Positions 4,499 to 20,917 of a stretch of DNA of 20,958 bases are shown in pieces (positions within the stretch are counted from its first letter, which is position 1; every line of letters starts with the position of its first letter). The DNA is from a virus. The DNA lies in the IMG/VR virus record IMGVR_UViG_3300005519_000020, positions 1-20,958 of that record. One strand, 5' to 3'. A program made the translations under genes and the position numbers. The notes under the pieces were generated by a model, which saw nothing but the letters and a program-made list of their open reading frames with translations, had not been told where the DNA came from and made no database searches.

Positions 4499-5731
4499 TT
4501 ACTGAAGCGCCTCCATCACGACTTCGCACCAGACTTGCGCCTGGATAGCATTGATCGCGTTTCCGTAGGCGCGCAGGCGTCCCACTCGGGCGGGAGCCCC
4601 ATGAGCCAGCGGGAATGTGCCGGGTTCAACTGGCCGCCACTTTCCATCCCGGCAGAGGAGCCAATCAGCATCTCGCCAGAAGCCGTTAGTCGGGCCGGGC
4701 CGCGCCAGTTCGAGTCGATCACATCCTGCATCGACCATTCGCATAAGCTGACCGTCTTGCGGCTGCTGTCGTTGTTCCCCGCAGGGTTGTTCCCGTTCTG
4801 CGCCGGAGTGCCCGCCATGGGCGTCGGCCATCCAGCCAACGGAGCGCACCCCGGCAGCCGATCCGTCCCCTGCGCTGGGCCGCCGTTTGGGCCGTCCTGC
4901 TGACATGGCGTCGGCCATCCAGCCAACGGAGCGCACCCCGGCAGCCGATCCGTCCCCTGCGCTGGGCCGCCGTTTGGGCCGTCCTGCTGACATGGCGTCG
5001 GCCACTCCGCCAACTGAGTGAATACCTCCTCGCTCAAAGGCTTGCCCTTGACCATTCGAGCCCTCGACGCCAGGAATTCCGGCGACGCGCTCGCGCTCTT
5101 CCAATCCCGTGCGGCCGGCGTCGGCCACGCGGCAAGCATCGAGAAGTCGTTGAGATTCGATCCGTGGCGGCTCTCGCCCATCGCGCGTTTCGCTTGCCCC
5201 ACCCCGCTGGCGTCCATAGCCTGCGGTGTGGGCCACCCAGTAAAGGCGGTCGCGGATGTGCGGGGCACCGATGCTCGCAGACGGGAACGGGACAGCCCCG
5301 AATCCGTATTCCACGGCTTCCATGTCAGCTTGTACAAGGTCGATCCAAGGATCTGCGTCCTTGCTCGCAACTTGTTCTCCAAGAACGACTGGAGGCCGGC
5401 GCTGCTGGATAAGCCAGTGAAAGGCAGGCCAGAGATGCCGCTCGTCAGCAAACGCAAGTCCTTTGCCTGCCGCGCTGAAAGGTTGGCAAGGACAGGAACC
5501 GGTCCAAACAGGTCGATCGTCGGACCAGCCTGCGCGTCGGAGTGCCAGCGACCAGACGCCGATTCCGGCGAAGAAGTGGCACTGTGTGTAGCCTCGGAGG
5601 TCGTCAGGTCGAACATCCTGAATGTCTCTCTCGTCGACGTCGCCCGGAGCAATGTGGCCCGCCGCAATCAGATTGCGCAGCCACTGGGCGGCGTATGGGT
5701 CGATCTCGTTGTAATAGGCGGCGGCAGACAT
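4499..5731 (-). CDS. C5-cytosine-specific DNA methyltransferase
   Basis: 410 aa from the ATG at 5731 (TGATG overlap with the HTH gene). Motif [18 protein letters not shown] lies at 53-69 and motif [14 protein letters not shown] at 78-89 with catalytic Cys82. Motif VI reads EQV (119-121) where most family members have ENV. Motif VIII is IRDRLYWVA (159-167) and motif X is [11 protein letters not shown] (388-398). The target-recognition region (about 168-350) contains a perfect 29-residue tandem duplication. It probably methylates phage DNA against host restriction; its target sequence cannot be read. A second long ORF overlaps it out of frame. Confidence 0.88.
4516..5616 (-). CDS. Possible overprinted ORF inside the methyltransferase gene (WPTP-repeat protein)
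   Basis: A 366-aa ORF in another frame on the same strand as the methyltransferase, open from ATG 5616 ([11 protein letters not shown]; an in-frame start at 5667 exists). It contains [20 protein letters not shown], five W-P-T-P motifs ([52 protein letters not shown]) and a C-terminal [21 protein letters not shown] recognise this motif set from phage proteins listed as hypothetical or methyltransferase-related. It may be a real overlapping gene, or those entries may be alternative-frame translations of methyltransferases. Both frames look conserved, so it is listed with moderate confidence. Confidence 0.4.
4821..4994. repeat. Perfect 87-bp tandem duplication within the methyltransferase gene
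   Basis: Positions 4821-4907 and 4908-4994 are identical over 87 bases, and a third copy starts at 4995 for about ten bases. The unit is 29 codons, so the methyltransferase frame is kept ([15 protein letters not shown]... twice), as is the overlapping frame ([14 protein letters not shown]... twice). The lack of any mismatch implies a recent duplication or an assembly artefact. Confidence 0.93.
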
Positions 5732-6027
5732 CACTGAAACAGGGAGCCCTGCTTCGCCGGCACCTTGACGCACTGCACGGTACGCAGCGTCACGGAACAC
5801 TTGCGCTCACCAGCCAGCACCAGGCGCCCCGCGGCGATGAGTTCGTTGCGCCGGCCCGAGACGCTGGATTTCTCCATATTCAAGAGAAACGCAATCTCGG
5901 CGATGGTGGCCGTTTCGACGGCTTCGACACATTCGACAATGCGGTCGCACTGCAGCTTGCCGACGTTGCGGCGGGTGCTGGAGTGGTAGGCGTCGATGGA
6001 AGTGTCTTGCACGTTGGTCAGCATCAT
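5731..6027 (-). CDS. Small winged-helix/HTH protein
   Basis: 98 aa from the ATG at 6027, which gives an ATGA overlap with the phosphatase stop and has GGGGGA upstream; ATG 6024 and 6039 are alternatives. The segment ECVEAVETATIAEIAFLLNMEKSSVSGRRNELIAAGRL is a winged-helix DNA-binding motif, with KSSVSGRRNELI as the likely recognition helix, followed by beta strands (SVTLRTVQCVKV). Phages of this type carry similar small wHTH proteins of unknown target. It may be a regulator or a replication accessory; the sequence does not decide. Confidence 0.68.
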   Translation of the reverse strand: MMLTNVQDTSIDAYHSSTRRNVGKLQCDRIVECVEAVETATIAEIAFLLNMEKSSVSGRRNELIAAGRLVLAGERKCSVTLRTVQCVKVPAKQGSLFQ

Positions 6028-7540: not shown

Positions 7541-7569
7541 ATTAAACACCACGTTTAATCAGAAGTCAA
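7541..7569 (-). promoter_or_regulatory. PR-like promoter of the leftward early operon
   Basis: On the minus strand, TTGACT (7569-7564), a 17-base spacer and TTTAAT (7546-7541) form a near-consensus sigma-70 promoter. The expected start, 7 bases past the -10 box, is at 7534, the A of the cro ATG. Operators centred at 7550 and 7574 overlap the -10 and -35 boxes, so repressor binding would occlude the polymerase. Confidence 0.85.
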
Positions 7570-7595
7570 ACGCCATGTTTATCAACAGGTTGTTT
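7544..7595. promoter_or_regulatory. OR operator cluster (three AAAC-N5-GTTT sites)
   Basis: Three imperfect palindromes share half-sites AAAC and GTTT five bases apart: 7544-7556 (within the 17-base palindrome TTAAACACCACGTTTAA at 7542-7558), 7568-7580, and a weaker one at 7583-7595 (CAAC in place of AAAC). The centres are 24 and 15 bases apart. They lie between the divergent cro and repressor genes and are matched by the cluster at 9041-9110. Confidence 0.85.
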
Positions 7596-7607
7596 ACGTG
7601 TGAGACC

Positions 7608-8414
7608 ATGCCGCGCATGCACGAAACCATGGTTCGCCTCTACGAGGCCGCACGCACACTCAAGGGATTGACGACCCAAGCGGACGTCGCCAGAGCCTTC
7701 AACTTCTCTCAGCAGAGGATCAAAAACTGGGAAGCCAGGGGCATGTCGAAGGGCGGCATGTTGAAGGCCCAAGAGGTTTTTGGTTGCAGCGCGACTTGGC
7801 TGGAGACCGGCAAGCCGCCGATGAACACTGTCAAGCAAAAATCTGATGCAGATCAGATTGAAATAAGACTTAACGAGCACTCAGAACCACCCTCTTACAA
7901 TCCTCAACAATCACCTACAAGAACGCTCACAGGCGTCGCGGTGCGCCCGATTGTTACTTATGAGACCCTGGACGAACTCCCTAAGGAGTCAACGGTTCTC
8001 ATCACGAGGATTGACGTGAAGCTGTCTGCGGGGAATGGGAGAGAGACTTGGCACATCGAGGAAAGGGAACCGCTGCCGTTCCAAGCCGATTACATACGGA
8101 GCCTCGATTCCAAACCGAAAAACTTAGTCGCCGCCAAGGTCAATGGCGACAGCATGGAGCCACGGCTATTCGACAAAGACACGGTGGTCGTCGACACGGC
8201 CGATACGCGGGTGCCAGCTAACGGCGGCGTGTTTGCCTTGGTGTATGCCGGCGAGCTGCTGGTCAAGCGCCTGTTCAGACTGCCTGATGGCGGACTGAAG
8301 GTGGTCAGCGACAACCATGTGCGCTACGAACCCGTCACAGTCGCGCCGGAGCATGTCGACAACGTGAGCATCATCGGCCGGGTCAAGTACCGGTCCGGCA
8401 TGGGCGATTTTTGA
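7608..8414 (+). CDS. S24/LexA-type CI-like prophage repressor
   Basis: 268 aa from ATG 7608. The in-frame ATG at 7575 would add 11 residues but lies inside an operator, so 7608 is preferred; the Shine-Dalgarno is weak for both. The N-terminal HTH is LTTQADVARAFNFSQQRIKNWEARG. The C-terminal S24 peptidase domain has Ala141-Gly142 in KLSAGNG as likely self-cleavage site, Ser182 in NGDSMEP and Lys220 in ELLVKRL as catalytic dyad. RecA-stimulated self-cleavage would make the prophage SOS-inducible. It should bind both operator clusters and keep the lysogenic state. Confidence 0.93.
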   Translation: MPRMHETMVRLYEAARTLKGLTTQADVARAFNFSQQRIKNWEARGMSKGGMLKAQEVFGCSATWLETGKPPMNTVKQKSDADQIEIRLNEHSEPPSYNPQQSPTRTLTGVAVRPIVTYETLDELPKESTVLITRIDVKLSAGNGRETWHIEEREPLPFQADYIRSLDSKPKNLVAAKVNGDSMEPRLFDKDTVVVDTADTRVPANGGVFALVYAGELLVKRLFRLPDGGLKVVSDNHVRYEPVTVAPEHVDNVSIIGRVKYRSGMGDF

Positions 8415-9040: not shown

Positions 9041-9110
9041 ACACACCGCGTTTGCACACCGCCAAAGAAAATTAAACGCGGTGTTTGACAACAAACTAAA
9101 CATGGTGTTT
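9041..9110. promoter_or_regulatory. OL operator cluster
   Basis: Two full sites, 9074-9086 and 9098-9110, have AAAC-N5-GTTT half-sites with centres 24 bases apart, the same spacing as the first two OR sites. A weaker site (ACAC-N5-GTTT) lies at 9041-9053. Shared half-sites at both ends of the repressor region argue that one repressor controls both early promoters. Confidence 0.82.
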
Positions 9111-9113
9111 AAT
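9085..9113 (+). promoter_or_regulatory. PL-like promoter of the rightward early operon
   Basis: A perfect -35 box TTGACA (9085-9090), a 17-base spacer and TTTAAT (9108-9113) predict a start near 9120. The -35 box abuts one operator and the second operator covers the spacer and -10 box. The -10 hexamer is identical to that of the PR-like promoter. Confidence 0.88.
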
Positions 9114-14015: not shown

Positions 14016-14519
14016 ATGCTCGACTTCGAATCCACCCTCGTGCGCGTCAAGCACATCAACAACCGTATCGAGAAGCACAGCGACGACAAGGTGCTGGGCG
14101 TGGATCTGCGTCTGGTAGTGCGTCTGTCGAACAACGAACTGGCGCAGTTCTCTCCGACGCTAAAGGCCAGCTTCTACCACAAGGATGACTCTGTGCAGGG
14201 TGACGTGGTCACAGACGCCAATCACCTGCCAAACCTCAAGAACCCGCAGATCGGCCCCATTAAGTGGGAAGGCGATTGGGAGCACCGCCGTCTGGCCATC
14301 CATCACGGCACGCGTGCGCAGGACGACATCGTGCTCGGCGACGCGAAGGTAAGCAAGGTGGTGCTGGATCTGCAGGAAGGCGGCACGGTGTTCGTGACCT
14401 TCCGCGTGCAGTGCCATCCCGACGAGAAGCAGGCGGCCAAGCTGCTGACGCTGCTCGACCAGGAAGTGCACATGTCCCTGTCCGTCGACGATGACGCCGA
14501 TCTGCCGATGGCGGCGTAG
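14016..14519 (+). CDS. Hypothetical protein with acidic C-terminal tail (167 aa)
   Basis: It starts MLDFESTLVRVKHINNRIEKHSDDKVLGVDLRLVVRLSNNELAQF, a beta-rich pattern, and ends with VDDDADLPMAA, an acidic tail like that of single-strand binding proteins. Its location after the annealase and exonuclease would suit an SSB-like or recombination accessory role, but no OB-fold motif is certain. ATG 14016 is chosen for AGGAGAG 5 bases upstream over an earlier in-frame ATG at 13968. It is the last gene before the noncoding element. Confidence 0.7.
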   Translation: MLDFESTLVRVKHINNRIEKHSDDKVLGVDLRLVVRLSNNELAQFSPTLKASFYHKDDSVQGDVVTDANHLPNLKNPQIGPIKWEGDWEHRRLAIHHGTRAQDDIVLGDAKVSKVVLDLQEGGTVFVTFRVQCHPDEKQAAKLLTLLDQEVHMSLSVDDDADLPMAA

Positions 14520-14520
14520 C

Positions 14521-14738
14521 GATCAGCGGGTGAAAGCAGATCCTGATCGACATCGATCGAGCGAAAAGCCCGTAGCCGGGAGATGCCGAGTCGATCGATA
14601 TGCGCGGTAGGCGGCGCAAGCAGCGGAGCGAGTAACCCACCCTTCAACGGGCGACTGCGGCGGGACATCGCCGAGTCCCAAAAAACACCGTGCGACGCCT
14701 CCTGGGTACCGGGCAGTCGCAGTTGCCCACCCATTTTT
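14521..14738 (+). ncRNA. Structured noncoding element upstream of the DGR (candidate sRNA or leader)
   Basis: The 262 bases between the preceding stop and the first DGR target hold no convincing gene but a series of inverted repeats. GATCAG (14521-14526) pairs with CTGATC (14543-14548). ATCGATCGA (14552-14560) pairs with TCGATCGAT (14591-14599) and encloses CCCG-TAGC-CGGG (14569-14580). GGG.GACT..GGCG pairs with CGCC.AGTCCC (14649-14679). A terminator hairpin follows. No sigma-70 promoter is evident, so it may be processed from the PL transcript. Class unknown; it matches no RNA family I know. Confidence 0.5.
14703..14738 (+). terminator. Intrinsic terminator before the DGR cassette
   Basis: TGGGT (14703-14707) and GGGCA (14711-14715) pair with TGCCC (14724-14728) and ACCCA (14729-14733), with a 3-base bulge and an 8-base loop, and five T residues follow (14734-14738). 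It would separate the PL recombination genes from the DGR unless read through by antitermination. Confidence 0.75.
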
Positions 14739-14781
14739 AAGCTGTAGCAGCACCCCGTTCATCCAACCCATAGGACACGAC

Positions 14782-15138
14782 ATGCAAATCCAACTTCCCC
14801 CGCTCGCTGAAGGCGAAACCTATCTCTTCGGTCGCGTCGACAAGAACGGTGACATCGAACACACCGTGGTCATCGCTGTGAACAACAGCGCGCTGTCCCG
14901 CGAGAAGCAACGCGAGTGGGCTAAGAGCATTGGCGGCGTGCTGATGAACCGCATCGAAGCCATCGAGATCTACAACAGCCACCGCGACCTCGTTGAGCCC
15001 GATTGGTACTGGACTGACGAAGACGTCGAATGGGATACCGCTTACGCCTGGTACCAGAACTTCAGCTACGGCTACCAGCTCAGCGACCCCAAGTGCGCCG
15101 CGCTGCGCGCGGTCGCTGTCCGCAGATTCAAAAATTGA
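14782..15138 (+). CDS. DGR target protein 1, DUF1566/C-type-lectin-like variable protein
   Basis: 118 aa, no signal peptide. The N-terminal MQIQLPPLAEGETYLFGRVDKNGDIEHTVVI and WAKSIGGVLMNRIEAIEIYN lead into DWYWTDEDVEWDTAYAWYQNF and the C-terminal ALRAVAVRRF, the DUF1566-type C-type-lectin-like fold found in many DGR targets. Residues 87-116 are encoded by VR1. Variable residues relative to the template reading NFNNGNQNNNHKS are S, Y, Y, L, S, D, P and C (eight changes). Such domains present a ligand-binding face. The ligand is unknown. AGGA lies 8 bases before the ATG. Confidence 0.88.
   Translation: MQIQLPPLAEGETYLFGRVDKNGDIEHTVVIAVNNSALSREKQREWAKSIGGVLMNRIEAIEIYNSHRDLVEPDWYWTDEDVEWDTAYAWYQNFSYGYQLSDPKCAALRAVAVRRFKN
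15038..15128 (+). repeat. Variable repeat VR1
   Basis: 91 bases aligned without gaps to TR 16201-16291. The first 20 bases and the last 43 or so are identical; 9 substitutions lie in between, and every one is at a template A (three to G, four to T and two to C, counted codon by codon). It lies at the 3' end of target gene 1 and is followed by CA where TR has GG. Confidence 0.97.
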
Positions 15139-15198
15139 CCCATCTCCTCATTCACTGAGCTGAACAACCCATCCCGTCCAACTCTGCAGGAGCACAGC

Positions 15199-15666
15199 AT
15201 GACCGCAGTCACCCTGGAGCACATCGAAGCGGAGCACGTGCGCATCGGCGAACTTATCAAGCGATTCAAGGAACAGCCGCGCGCCACGGAATACCGTGTC
15301 GATGCAGTCACGATCCCACTCGCGCCCGGCGAACGCCTCGCCGGTCCGATCTACGCCGAAGACGGCACGCTGGATTACTACCTGATCAAGCTGCCCGGCG
15401 ATGGTGGCGACCTCAGCCACTCCGATGCCATCGCGTATGCGGCCGGCCGTGGCGGCAAGGTTCCCAATCGCCGCGAAGGGCGCCTTCTGATGGCGAATCT
15501 AGGCGAGGAGTTCGACAAGGTCGCCTACTGGTTGGAAGACGACTACGAGCCGAACTCCGCTTACGCCTGGTACCAGTACTTCGACGGCGGCTACCAGATC
15601 ACCAACCACGAGAGCGCCGCGCTGCGCGCGGTCGCTGTCCGCAGATTCACCCCTTCCGTAATTTGA
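15199..15666 (+). CDS. DGR target protein 2, DUF1566/C-type-lectin-like variable protein
   Basis: 155 aa. A helical N-terminus (MTAVTLEHIEAEHVRIGELIKRFKEQ) not shared with target 1 precedes a DUF1566-like domain: GRGGKVPNRREGRLLMANL, AYWLEDDYEPNSAYAWYQYF and ALRAVAVRRF. VR2 covers residues 120-149. Seven residues differ from the template reading (Y, D, G, Y, I, T, E). The two targets share little outside the VR-coded end and the surrounding fold, so they are diverged paralogues or separate acquisitions fed by one TR. GGAG precedes the ATG by 6 bases. Confidence 0.9.
   Translation: MTAVTLEHIEAEHVRIGELIKRFKEQPRATEYRVDAVTIPLAPGERLAGPIYAEDGTLDYYLIKLPGDGGDLSHSDAIAYAAGRGGKVPNRREGRLLMANLGEEFDKVAYWLEDDYEPNSAYAWYQYFDGGYQITNHESAALRAVAVRRFTPSVI
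15557..15647 (+). repeat. Variable repeat VR2
   Basis: 91 bases aligned without gaps to TR 16201-16291, with 8 substitutions, all at template A. The same reading phase is used as in VR1. Its 3' flank CA equals that of VR1 and differs from TR (GG), consistent with the VR-side form of the homing-initiation region. Confidence 0.97.
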
Positions 15667-15680
15667 TCATTTGACACGCC

Positions 15681-16058
15681 ATGGCTCTGCACACTGAGCT
15701 CGACGTCTACAAGACCGGCTACGACCTGTTCGGCAAGGTGACCATGATCGTCGCGAACATGGAACGCACTTTCAAGCGCCTGATCGGCGAGGAGATCGTC
15801 CGCGAATCCTCGAAGCTTCTGATCTTGGTCTATCGCGCGAATGTCGCTGAAGACAAGGTGCCGCACCTCGCCAACTTGGTCGAGCGAGTAAAGCTCGTCG
15901 AGCTGTTGATCCGCCTCTCATTCGACATGAAGAAGGTCTCGCCTAAGCAGTACTGGGCGGTCACGAAGTTGACGGAGAGCATCAGCAAACAGGCCACGGC
16001 GTGGAAGAAGTACGCAGCCAAGCGCCCGTTTCATGGAGGTCAAGGCCACCATGACTGA
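15681..16058 (+). CDS. avd: Avd-like accessory variability determinant
   Basis: 125 aa, the normal size for Avd. It is all-helical and basic: LDVYKTGYDLFGKVTMIVANM, then FKRLIGEEIVRESSKLLILVYRAN, LANLVERVKLVELLIRLSFDM and YWAVTKLTESISKQATAWKKYAA, the four helices of the bundle fold. Avd forms a pentamer that binds the reverse transcriptase and the template RNA and is essential for mutagenic cDNA synthesis in the Bordetella phage system. It begins 14 bases after target 2 with little Shine-Dalgarno. Its end overlaps the reverse transcriptase start. Confidence 0.9.
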   Translation: MALHTELDVYKTGYDLFGKVTMIVANMERTFKRLIGEEIVRESSKLLILVYRANVAEDKVPHLANLVERVKLVELLIRLSFDMKKVSPKQYWAVTKLTESISKQATAWKKYAAKRPFHGGQGHHD

Positions 16059-17421
16059 GCGCCTTTTCAATCTGGTCGTGCCGCTGGCTCACAAGGCCAC
16101 CGCCATGCGCGTCACGGATACCGCCGGTTTCGACCGGGAAGCGTCCCGCGCAGTTTCCCATCTGAGCGATCGGACGGGCGACGTAGATAGCACGATTGGT
16201 CCGCTTACGCCTGGTACCAGAACTTCAACAACGGCAACCAGAACAACAACCACAAGAGCGCCGCGCTGCGCGCGGTCGCTGTCCGCAGATTGGAACGAAA
16301 CGGAAGGCTTCACGGGCGCCGAGTTGGTCAGAGCATACCGAGACTGCCGGCGCACGAAACGCAATACAGCAAGCGCGCTCGCCTTCGAAGCCAACCTCGA
16401 GCGCAACCTCTTCAAATTGCACGGCGAACTGGCCAGCGGCTGCTATGTGCCGGGCCCATCGAAGTGCTTTGTCATCGACCGGCCCAAGCATCGCGAAGTC
16501 TGGGCGGCCGCCTTCCGCGATCGAATCGTGCACCACTTGTTGTACAACCGCATTGGTCCGCGCTTCGAACGCACATTCATCGCCGATTCCTGCGCATGCA
16601 TCAAAGGGCGCGGCACGCTATACGCCGCCCAGCGCCTGGAATCGAAAGTGCGCTCGATTACCCAGAACTGGGCACGGCCAGCGCACTACCTGAAGTGCGA
16701 TCTGGCCAACTTCTTCGTCAGCATCGACAAGCGCGTACTCCTCGATCTACTGCTCGCGAAGATCTCCGAGCCATTCTGGCGCGCATTGACCGAGCTCGTG
16801 CTGATGCACGATCCACGGGAAAACTTCGTCTACCTTGGCGACCCTAGGATGATGGACCGCGTGCCGCCGCACAAGCGCTTGATGCAACAGCCGGCGCACC
16901 TCGGGCTGCCTATCGGCAACCTGTCGTCGCAGTTCTTCGCCAACGTCTACCTCAACGAGCTGGACCAGTTCGTGAAGCACGAACTGCGCTGCCGGCATTA
17001 CATCCGCTACGTCGACGACTTCGTGCTTATGCACGAGTCGCCTCAGTGGCTCAACGAGGCGCACGCTGCCGTCGCGGCATTCCTGCCGGCCCGGCTTGGT
17101 GCGCGCCTCAACCCAACGAAGACCATCCTGCAGCCGGTCGCACGCGGCATCGACTTCGTCGGCCAGGTGGTTCGCCCATGGGTGCGGCACACCCGCAAGC
17201 GGACGCTGAATAGCAGCATTCAGCGCGTTCGCGAAATGCCGGCACAGGACATCTATCAAGCCGCCAACAGCTACTTCGGCCTGCTGCGCCAAGCCACTGG
17301 CAGCCACACCGAGCGCGCCAAGCTCGCGAATGCCGCGCGCAAGCGTGGGCATGCCGTCAATCGACAACTCACGAAGGCCTACCGCGCCGCCCTCGATAAG
17401 CAGAAGGAGAAGCAACAATGA
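16051..17421 (+). CDS. DGR reverse transcriptase
   Basis: 456 aa from ATG 16051, which has GGAGGT 10 bases upstream; ATG 16033 is an alternative. The polymerase core includes YLKCDLANFFVSID with Asp217, GLPIGNLSSQFFANVYLNELD (285-305; the SQ in motif 4 is typical of DGR enzymes, where group II introns have QG), and RYVDDFVLM with Asp322-Asp323. The thumb is basic. There is no maturase or endonuclease domain. The first 80 or so residues, including a Thr/Arg-rich stretch translated from TR, precede the conserved core and are not typical. No in-frame ATG or GTG was found between TR and the core; TTG 16324 is the only candidate. Confidence 0.95.
   Translation: MTERLFNLVVPLAHKATAMRVTDTAGFDREASRAVSHLSDRTGDVDSTIGPLTPGTRTSTTATRTTTTRAPRCARSLSADWNETEGFTGAELVRAYRDCRRTKRNTASALAFEANLERNLFKLHGELASGCYVPGPSKCFVIDRPKHREVWAAAFRDRIVHHLLYNRIGPRFERTFIADSCACIKGRGTLYAAQRLESKVRSITQNWARPAHYLKCDLANFFVSIDKRVLLDLLLAKISEPFWRALTELVLMHDPRENFVYLGDPRMMDRVPPHKRLMQQPAHLGLPIGNLSSQFFANVYLNELDQFVKHELRCRHYIRYVDDFVLMHESPQWLNEAHAAVAAFLPARLGARLNPTKTILQPVARGIDFVGQVVRPWVRHTRKRTLNSSIQRVREMPAQDIYQAANSYFGLLRQATGSHTERAKLANAARKRGHAVNRQLTKAYRAALDKQKEKQQ
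16201..16291 (+). repeat. Template repeat TR
   Basis: 91 bases with AAC codons in the frame of the targets (reading NFNNGNQNNNHKS), the design that gives maximum diversity when A is randomised. It is identical to both variable repeats at every non-A position. It contains the GC-rich palindrome CCGCGC-TGC-GCGCGG at 16261-16275, present in both VRs too. It is flanked by GG at its 3' side. It lies inside the reverse transcriptase ORF. Confidence 0.97.
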
Positions 17422-18074
17422 CAGCCAAAACTATCGTAGGTCGCTTGGCTCCCAACGCATGGAGAACTGGCGATCCGTTGCCAGAGATTGGTTCTATCTG
17501 TCTTGTTTCAGGGGCGAACTGCGATGTCGAGAGCGACCAGCATCGAAGCTATATGTGGAGAAAAGTGGTTGGGTATGGCGACGGCGATATGTTCGTGTGT
17601 CTCCAAACTGAAGGCTGCTGGCCGACTGTCGAGCGCACCGAGAATTGCTGGTTTGCGGAAATCCCTGTTGGGCGCGTGCAGCAGACCGAGCCAGTGGGGG
17701 ATGAGCGCGCGGCGTTTGAGAACTTATACGAATCGCTGCCCGACCCTGTGAATCTAACTCGCCACGAATTGGCATGGCGCGCATGGCAAGCTCGCGCCGC
17801 CCAGTCCGGCCAGCGGGCGGGCGTGGCGGAGGGATGGTGCTTCTACTCGGCGGATTTCAGCATGAATGCAGCGAACCCAGCGCAACGAGGGACAGTCATG
17901 CTGATTCGAGACGATGCTGGCCGCAAATGGTGGCACGGCTTGGATGAGGACGAGCGAGAAAAAATTGCGCTCCTTGTCTCCGGCCATGGATTGACATTTG
18001 ACACTGCCATGCAAGCCGCGAATAGCAACGCCATCGCCGCCGCGCCCACACCGGCAGCGCAGGGAGGGGCGTGA
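17418..18074 (+). CDS. Hypothetical phage protein (218 aa)
   Basis: N-terminal PNAWRTGDPLPEIGSICLVSG...WRKVVGYGDGDMFVCLQTEGCWPTVERTENCWFAEI looks like a beta-rich domain. A segment AFENLYESLPDPVNLTRHELAWRAWQARAAQ follows, which I recognise from accessory phage proteins that share the AW.AWQARA motif. The C-terminal part has KWWHGLDEDEREKIALL. Starts at 17418, overlapping the reverse transcriptase stop by ATGA, so it may be transcribed with the DGR. Function unknown; less GC-rich than the DGR genes. Confidence 0.7.
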   Translation: MTAKTIVGRLAPNAWRTGDPLPEIGSICLVSGANCDVESDQHRSYMWRKVVGYGDGDMFVCLQTEGCWPTVERTENCWFAEIPVGRVQQTEPVGDERAAFENLYESLPDPVNLTRHELAWRAWQARAAQSGQRAGVAEGWCFYSADFSMNAANPAQRGTVMLIRDDAGRKWWHGLDEDEREKIALLVSGHGLTFDTAMQAANSNAIAAAPTPAAQGGA

Positions 18075-20840: not shown

Positions 20841-20917
20841 TGGGGTGACCGATGGGATTCGAACCCACGACAACCAGAATCACAATCTGGGACTCTACCA
20901 ACTGAGCTACGGCCACC
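20841..20917 (-). tRNA. tRNA-His (anticodon GTG), prophage integration site
   Basis: On the minus strand the sequence begins GGTGGCC, has TAGCTCAGTTGGTAGAG for the D arm, CCAGA-TTGTGAT-TCTGG for the anticodon arm with anticodon GTG, GTGGGTTCGAACCCCAT for the T arm, and ends GGTCACCCCA. The extra 5' G opposite C73 and the encoded CCA are typical of tRNA-His. All stems pair. Its 3' end faces the integrase gene, the usual arrangement when a phage uses the 3' end of a tRNA as attB and restores it on integration. Confidence 0.96.

Follow-up and report, generated by a model that had tools for sequence, protein, structure and literature searches.

Probable translation of a phage reverse transcriptase through an RT-15 RNA and the template repeat of a diversity-generating retroelement

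The retroelement and its closest described systems

In the diversity-generating retroelement (DGR) of BPP-1, which has the order avd-TR-brt, the template repeat (TR) and brt are separated by a structured RNA of the Rfam family Phage_DGR, beyond which brt begins. Retrons (msr-msd-ret) carry a structured RNA, a template and a reverse transcriptase (RT) gene in that order, and a 5' RNA strand pairs with the 3' end of the template. An overlap of TR and RT was catalogued in 2012 as structural group 3 of the DiGReF collection (PMC3521204). Group 3 is an annotation class; the arrangement was deemed irrelevant, and the TR and RT RNAs were considered to be separately transcribed.

We analyzed a virus record of 20,958 bases (hereafter the window, meaning the whole stretch of DNA). 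The window represents a phage early region with genes for a RecT-like annealing protein, exonucleases, a repressor-like protein and an integrase, as well as a tRNA-His at the right end, and the DGR sits among these genes. Several other features were observed in the same region. The minus-strand ORF 4499-5800, which is DNA methyltransferase-like, contains a perfect 87-nt tandem duplication (4820-4993; 29 codons, in frame). The repressor-like gene (7575-8414) is flanked by AAACACCATGTTTA-like inverted repeats (7541-7581 and 9073-9113) that are probable operators. The tRNA-His (20841-20916) lies beside the integrase and probably serves as an attachment site; the annotation of BPP-1 likewise names a tRNA-His as such.

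All components of the DGR are encoded on the plus strand. Two target genes with weak matches to Lcl_C (14782-15138, 118 aa, and 15199-15666, 155 aa) contain the variable repeats VR1 (15038-15128) and VR2 (15556-15647), respectively. They are followed by avd, the accessory variability determinant (15681-16058), which was recognized by the PHROG 'Avd protein of DGR' (9.4e-21), while Avd models, among them PF22296 (2.8e-8), matched below their curated family cut-offs. The TR (16200-16291, 92 nt) is nearly identical to both repeats, with 9 mismatches to VR1 and 8 to VR2, and all 17 fall at TR adenines, the pattern that defines a DGR. From these differences we infer mutagenic retrohoming in this element. 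The RT catalytic core (16303-17418) is of the DGR type, matching RVT_1 (4.8e-14), the PHROG RT (1.4e-113) and PDB entry 8ub7 (8e-38), with the 8ub7-8ube RT set as the best PDB match; the ORF has YVDD at the active site and also LGLPIGNLSSQ. By these matches, the window contains a complete phage DGR with two targets, avd, TR and RT. Both targets are small and located in the early region rather than among tail genes. Cruciforms downstream of the VRs, as in BPP-1, were looked for and none were found.

Directly 5' of the TR, we identified a full-length match to the RT-15 structured RNA (Rfam RF03018; 16020-16202), which the sequence-only reading of this DNA had missed. The match covers model positions 1-192 with 168.6 bits against a gathering cut-off of 82 (E 4.8e-42), overlaps the 3' end of avd and the 5' end of the RT ORF, and has the TR as its 3' limit. 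The DGR of the window thus belongs to the RT-15 class. The family was found 5' of the TR in 16 of 16 relatives listed, including two (L071 and L083) in which another gene precedes the RT.

The window resembles BPP-1 in the gene order avd, TR, RT, in adenine-specific differences between TR and VRs, and in its homologous RT (8ub7) and Avd. In contrast to BPP-1, its structured RNA lies 5' of the TR, and the TR abuts the RT core. Compared with the Rfam entry, the RT-15 RNA of the window is in addition coding. No Phage_DGR RNA (RF03022) was detected 3' of the TR, RT-15 being the only RNA found within 14501-17600 at E up to 1. The order of elements is reminiscent of retrons, from which the window differs by a DGR-type RT accompanied by avd, TR and VRs. 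As in DiGReF group 3 (PMC3521204), the TR overlaps the 5' end of the RT ORF; unlike in that catalogue, the frame can here be seen to be under selection and a start can be located by comparison. Within the literature searched, which did not extend to Weinberg 2017 (Rfam RT-15) and Wu 2018 (DGR classification), we found no earlier report of frame selection, of a start codon in RT-15 or of a helix between RT-15 and the TR, nor any paper connecting RT-15 with DGRs or examining the frame.

Selection on the reading frame across the template repeat

The RT-containing ORF is free of stops from 16033/16051 to 17421, with upstream in-frame ATGs at 16033 and 16051, and it is open for 330 nt 5' of the RT core. 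From ATG 16051, the start proposed below, it encodes 456 aa. The sequence-only reading had placed the TR within this frame, open from GGAGGT and ATG 16051 with neither ATG nor GTG between the TR and the catalytic core, and had the TR read as a Thr/Arg-rich segment in a frame other than that of the targets. Each of these statements was borne out, GGAGGT lying at 16035-16040 and the translated segment being PLTPGTRTSTTATRTTTTRAPRCARSLSAD. However, an open frame alone is weak evidence, because in BPP-1 it extends 729 nt upstream although the RT starts downstream of the TR.

The relatives compared were collected by RT similarity, by an RT-15 sequence pattern and from phage records, ignoring the frame, and 123 non-redundant loci had a recognizable RT-15 landmark 5' of the RT (in one, L228, the landmark is probably mis-set). 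We divided them by the presence of an in-frame ATG inside or after the TR, a criterion independent of the upstream frame, into 63 loci without and 60 loci with such an alternative ATG. Minimum numbers of length changes were counted on a tree of 118 RT cores, under a null model in which two thirds of changes alter the frame; this count replaced a paired-comparison sign test on the tree, which had too few informative pairs.

Among the loci without an alternative ATG, the RT frame is open across the TR in 62 of 63, compared with 3 and 7 for the remaining frames. In 59 of these loci, RT-15 and the core are spaced by a multiple of three. Among the loci with one, 30 of 60 contain stops and the distances fall into all three classes (29, 18 and 13). 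Stops or frameshifts upstream of the TR, which the sequence-only reading had named as an observation that would count against it, were thus confined to loci with another in-frame ATG in or after the TR, except for a single locus (L249). On the tree, the group without alternative ATG requires at least 34 length changes, only 4 of them frame-altering (P 4.8e-11), whereas 18 of the 29 changes needed in the other group alter the frame, as expected if length is free. Since length changes of the TR are multiples of three (the targets being coding), the count was repeated piecewise. With the TR excluded, one of 25 changes is frame-altering in the group without alternative ATG. For the distance between TR end and core, the proportion is 0 of 19 in this group and 2 of 16 in the other, and the true exceptions in this class have an ATG after the TR.

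One reading that these data bear upon is that the RT starts downstream of the TR, at TTG 16324 or at the next codon, which is GTG in many relatives (core codon 9), and that the openness of the upstream frame is a chance product of GC-rich DNA. BPP-1, with its chance-open upstream frame and its own ATG after the TR, provides a precedent, and in four relatives (L164, L181, L216 and L242) the start lies immediately behind the TR. However, chance yields neither 62 of 63 open frames against 3 and 7 nor frame-neutral length changes at such a P value, and a start at the GTG would leave the conservation of the frame unexplained. TTG 16324, which the sequence-only reading had put forward as a start to be checked, encodes the L of a conserved 'ELV(x)AY', and starting there would cut off the first conserved residues of the core; the codon is TTG in only 5 of 63 relatives and mostly CTG. 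We consider a downstream start improbable.

A second reading has the RT start inside the TR in the window too, from a non-ATG codon, as it appears to in the ATG-bearing relatives (Pseudomonas phages). In 24 relatives, the upstream frame is broken and the sole ATG lies inside the TR, and the annotation of phage Cruim01 begins the RT there, while the GenBank annotation of Burkholderia phage Magia begins it within RT-15. Against this, the window has ACG at the position of the relatives' TR ATG, and the frame across RT-15 is kept in the absence of a TR ATG and lost in its presence: frame-altering changes of the internal length of RT-15 amount to 1 of 13 in the group without alternative ATG and 16 of 20 in the other. 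A start inside the TR of the window is thus very unlikely.

Where an ATG lies inside the TR, decay is confined to the frame upstream of that ATG, and where it lies after the TR, the frame breaks freely. Judging from these comparisons, the frame is maintained beginning with the first ATG available, whether in RT-15, in the TR or behind it, depending on where the last ATG sits. The comparison excludes chance and places the RT frame across the TR under selection in the relatives. Because 62 of the 63 relatives that lack a later ATG keep the frame, the window, too, is best explained by an RT that is translated through the TR, as far as sequence comparison can tell. If evolution keeps this frame open, the same RNA must act both as message and as template.

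One relative, L071, is a natural gene trap. A DNA methyltransferase gene is inserted there between the TR and the RT, and its ORF (2147-2986) runs in frame through RT-15 and the TR; the methyltransferase match begins at residue 114, with no ATG between the TR and the conserved DPCCGS motif, and the RT has its own ATG just 5' of the core. In L083, another unrelated gene (1701-2234) separates the RT-15/TR unit from the RT, and the frame of the TR continues into this gene. In a Limnobacter relative (L009), the RT frame crosses the TR in the frame of the target, the frames of RT-15 and core being as usual.

In most of the distant DGRs with a TR near the RT, an ATG or GTG occurs between the TR and the core. 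A few of them (L027, L031 and L055) have no start there, and their RT frame passes through the TR, coinciding with the target's own frame to the extent that translation shows. This suggests that placement of the TR within the RT frame probably arose independently in these lineages.

Proposed start codon in RT-15, leader peptide and pairing with the template repeat

As a correction to the sequence-only reading, the region upstream of the TR is more than a leader: it constitutes the RT-15 RNA, and the ribosome site and the ATG are paired in its first stem. This stem, P1 (16031-16054), is formed by 16031-16040 and 16045-16054 and includes both GGAGG (16035-16039), paired with 16046-16050, and ATG 16051, the A of which is paired with 16034. 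On average, 8.8 of 10 P1 pairs are kept across loci and 7.0 after exchange of arms between loci; hence the arms covary. The folding energy of the single sequence is uninformative (z about -1).

An ATG is present in the 3' arm of P1 in 57 of the 63 loci without alternative ATG and in 2 of 29 frame-broken loci (Fisher 3e-15), while P1 pairing is equal in the two sets (8.8 and 8.9 of 10). The avd stop codon overlaps this ATG as ATGACTGA, the form found in the window with avd ending at 16058, or overlaps, in the form ATGA, a second ATG located in the 5' arm. A recognizable ribosome site before the P1 ATG is missing in 9 of 63 loci. Taken together, these patterns point to ATG 16051, inside the first stem of RT-15, as the RT start. 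Since the ribosome site and the ATG are both buried in P1, RT initiation must depend on something; the overlap with avd suggests coupling to avd translation, which we assume here.

The peptide encoded by RT-15 and the TR shows no conservation at the protein level. Variation is flat across the three codon positions in RT-15 (0.56, 0.69 and 0.61 bits) and in the TR (0.52, 0.57 and 0.54), in contrast to the strong bias in the RT core (0.58, 0.40 and 1.15). AlphaFold modelling on 47 relatives yields pLDDT below 50 for residues 1-83, a predicted disorder, and the fold begins at about residue 84 (base 16300). Selection on the leader at the peptide level was rejected on these two grounds. The Thr/Arg-rich peptide noted from the sequence is therefore encoded but unconserved as protein; by codon statistics and structure prediction, selection acts on the frame, and the approximately 83 N-terminal residues are a by-product.

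The unconserved leader also agrees with a further reading, in which translation through RT-15 and the TR only keeps ribosomes on the transcript, protecting it from Rho-dependent termination, and the RT is re-initiated further down. Retention of ribosomes needs no frame match to the RT core, yet the spacing between TR and core is frame-neutral in 19 of 19 changes, and we regard such re-initiation as extremely improbable. Translation of the RT itself from RT-15 through the TR remains the preferred reading.

Folding of RT-15 together with the TR predicted a long-range helix, absent from the Rfam RT-15 model, which stops at the TR. The 5' strand, UUCAAUCUG (16066-16074), pairs with 16286-16294, that is, with the last six bases of the TR and the next three. 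The helix was recovered by RNAalifold from 66 diverse loci, stacked on the closing helix of RT-15. It contains one strongly covarying pair, 16068/16292, of which 16292 immediately follows the TR. In 121 loci, this pair is standard in 97% against 42% expected (G-C 50, C-G 37, U-A 24, U-G 4), and among 1152 column pairs it shows the strongest coupling of changes along the tree (18 and 19 changes, 22 jointly). Its mutual information is 1.37 bits, compared with 0.63 for the next-best partner of 16068. The adjacent pair 16069/16291 is often A.C, and the five innermost pairs are uninformative because they are nearly invariant. By this covariation, a single strand of RT-15 can be taken to pair with the 3' end of the TR in this class. 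The RT-15 fold itself is likewise conserved across the loci compared.

A role of the helix in discriminating TR from VR is not general: VR copies can pair in 88 of 165 cases, compared with 97% for the TR, and the window's own VRs do not pair with the RT-15 strand. The existence of an equivalent of the BPP-1 spacer, as an RNA element concealed within the beginning of the RT core, was rejected, synonymous variation not being depressed at the core start (0.85-0.93 versus 0.81-1.02 elsewhere). Given no excess synonymous constraint there, the structured part of the DGR RNA appears to be situated 5' of the template, opposite to the arrangement in BPP-1.

A proposed message and template switch

We are fairly confident in the following explanation as a whole, which rests on comparison of sequences: the window carries an RT-15-class DGR whose RT is read from ATG 16051 through RT-15 and the TR into the core, a helix joins RT-15 to the TR, and each RNA is message or template, one at a time. 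Probably avd, the RT-15 RNA, the TR and the RT are all part of one transcript. In its template form, RT-15 would close into a domain, which presumably binds RT and Avd, and its single-stranded CAAUCUG would pair with CAGAUUG at the TR 3' end. The helix might thereby hold the end of the TR, where copying should begin, beside the structured domain. RT synthesis would need P1 to be opened, probably by the ribosomes that finish avd, which would couple it to avd translation, and a ribosome crossing RT-15 and the TR would melt the template fold. Because of these two requirements, one RNA molecule would do one job at a time. This anatomy makes plausible the suggestion of the sequence-only reading that translation could compete with reverse transcription.

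More tentatively, it can be speculated that RT-15-class DGRs in general follow a reversed RNA plan, in which a structured domain located 5' of the template binds RT and Avd and uses a long-range helix to clamp the 3' end of the template in a retron-like manner. As the RT is translated through both RT-15 and the TR, it would then depend on whether avd ribosomes re-start in the RT-15 stem if a given transcript acts as message or as template.

The proposed start would place the RT start codon in a structured RNA, which would explain why automatic RT annotations disagree. If the model is true, the question of how one RNA serves both as mRNA and as mutagenic template becomes testable, and swapping the pair 16068-16292 should control copying. 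The comparison also suggests that the priming architecture of DGRs may not always be that of BPP-1.
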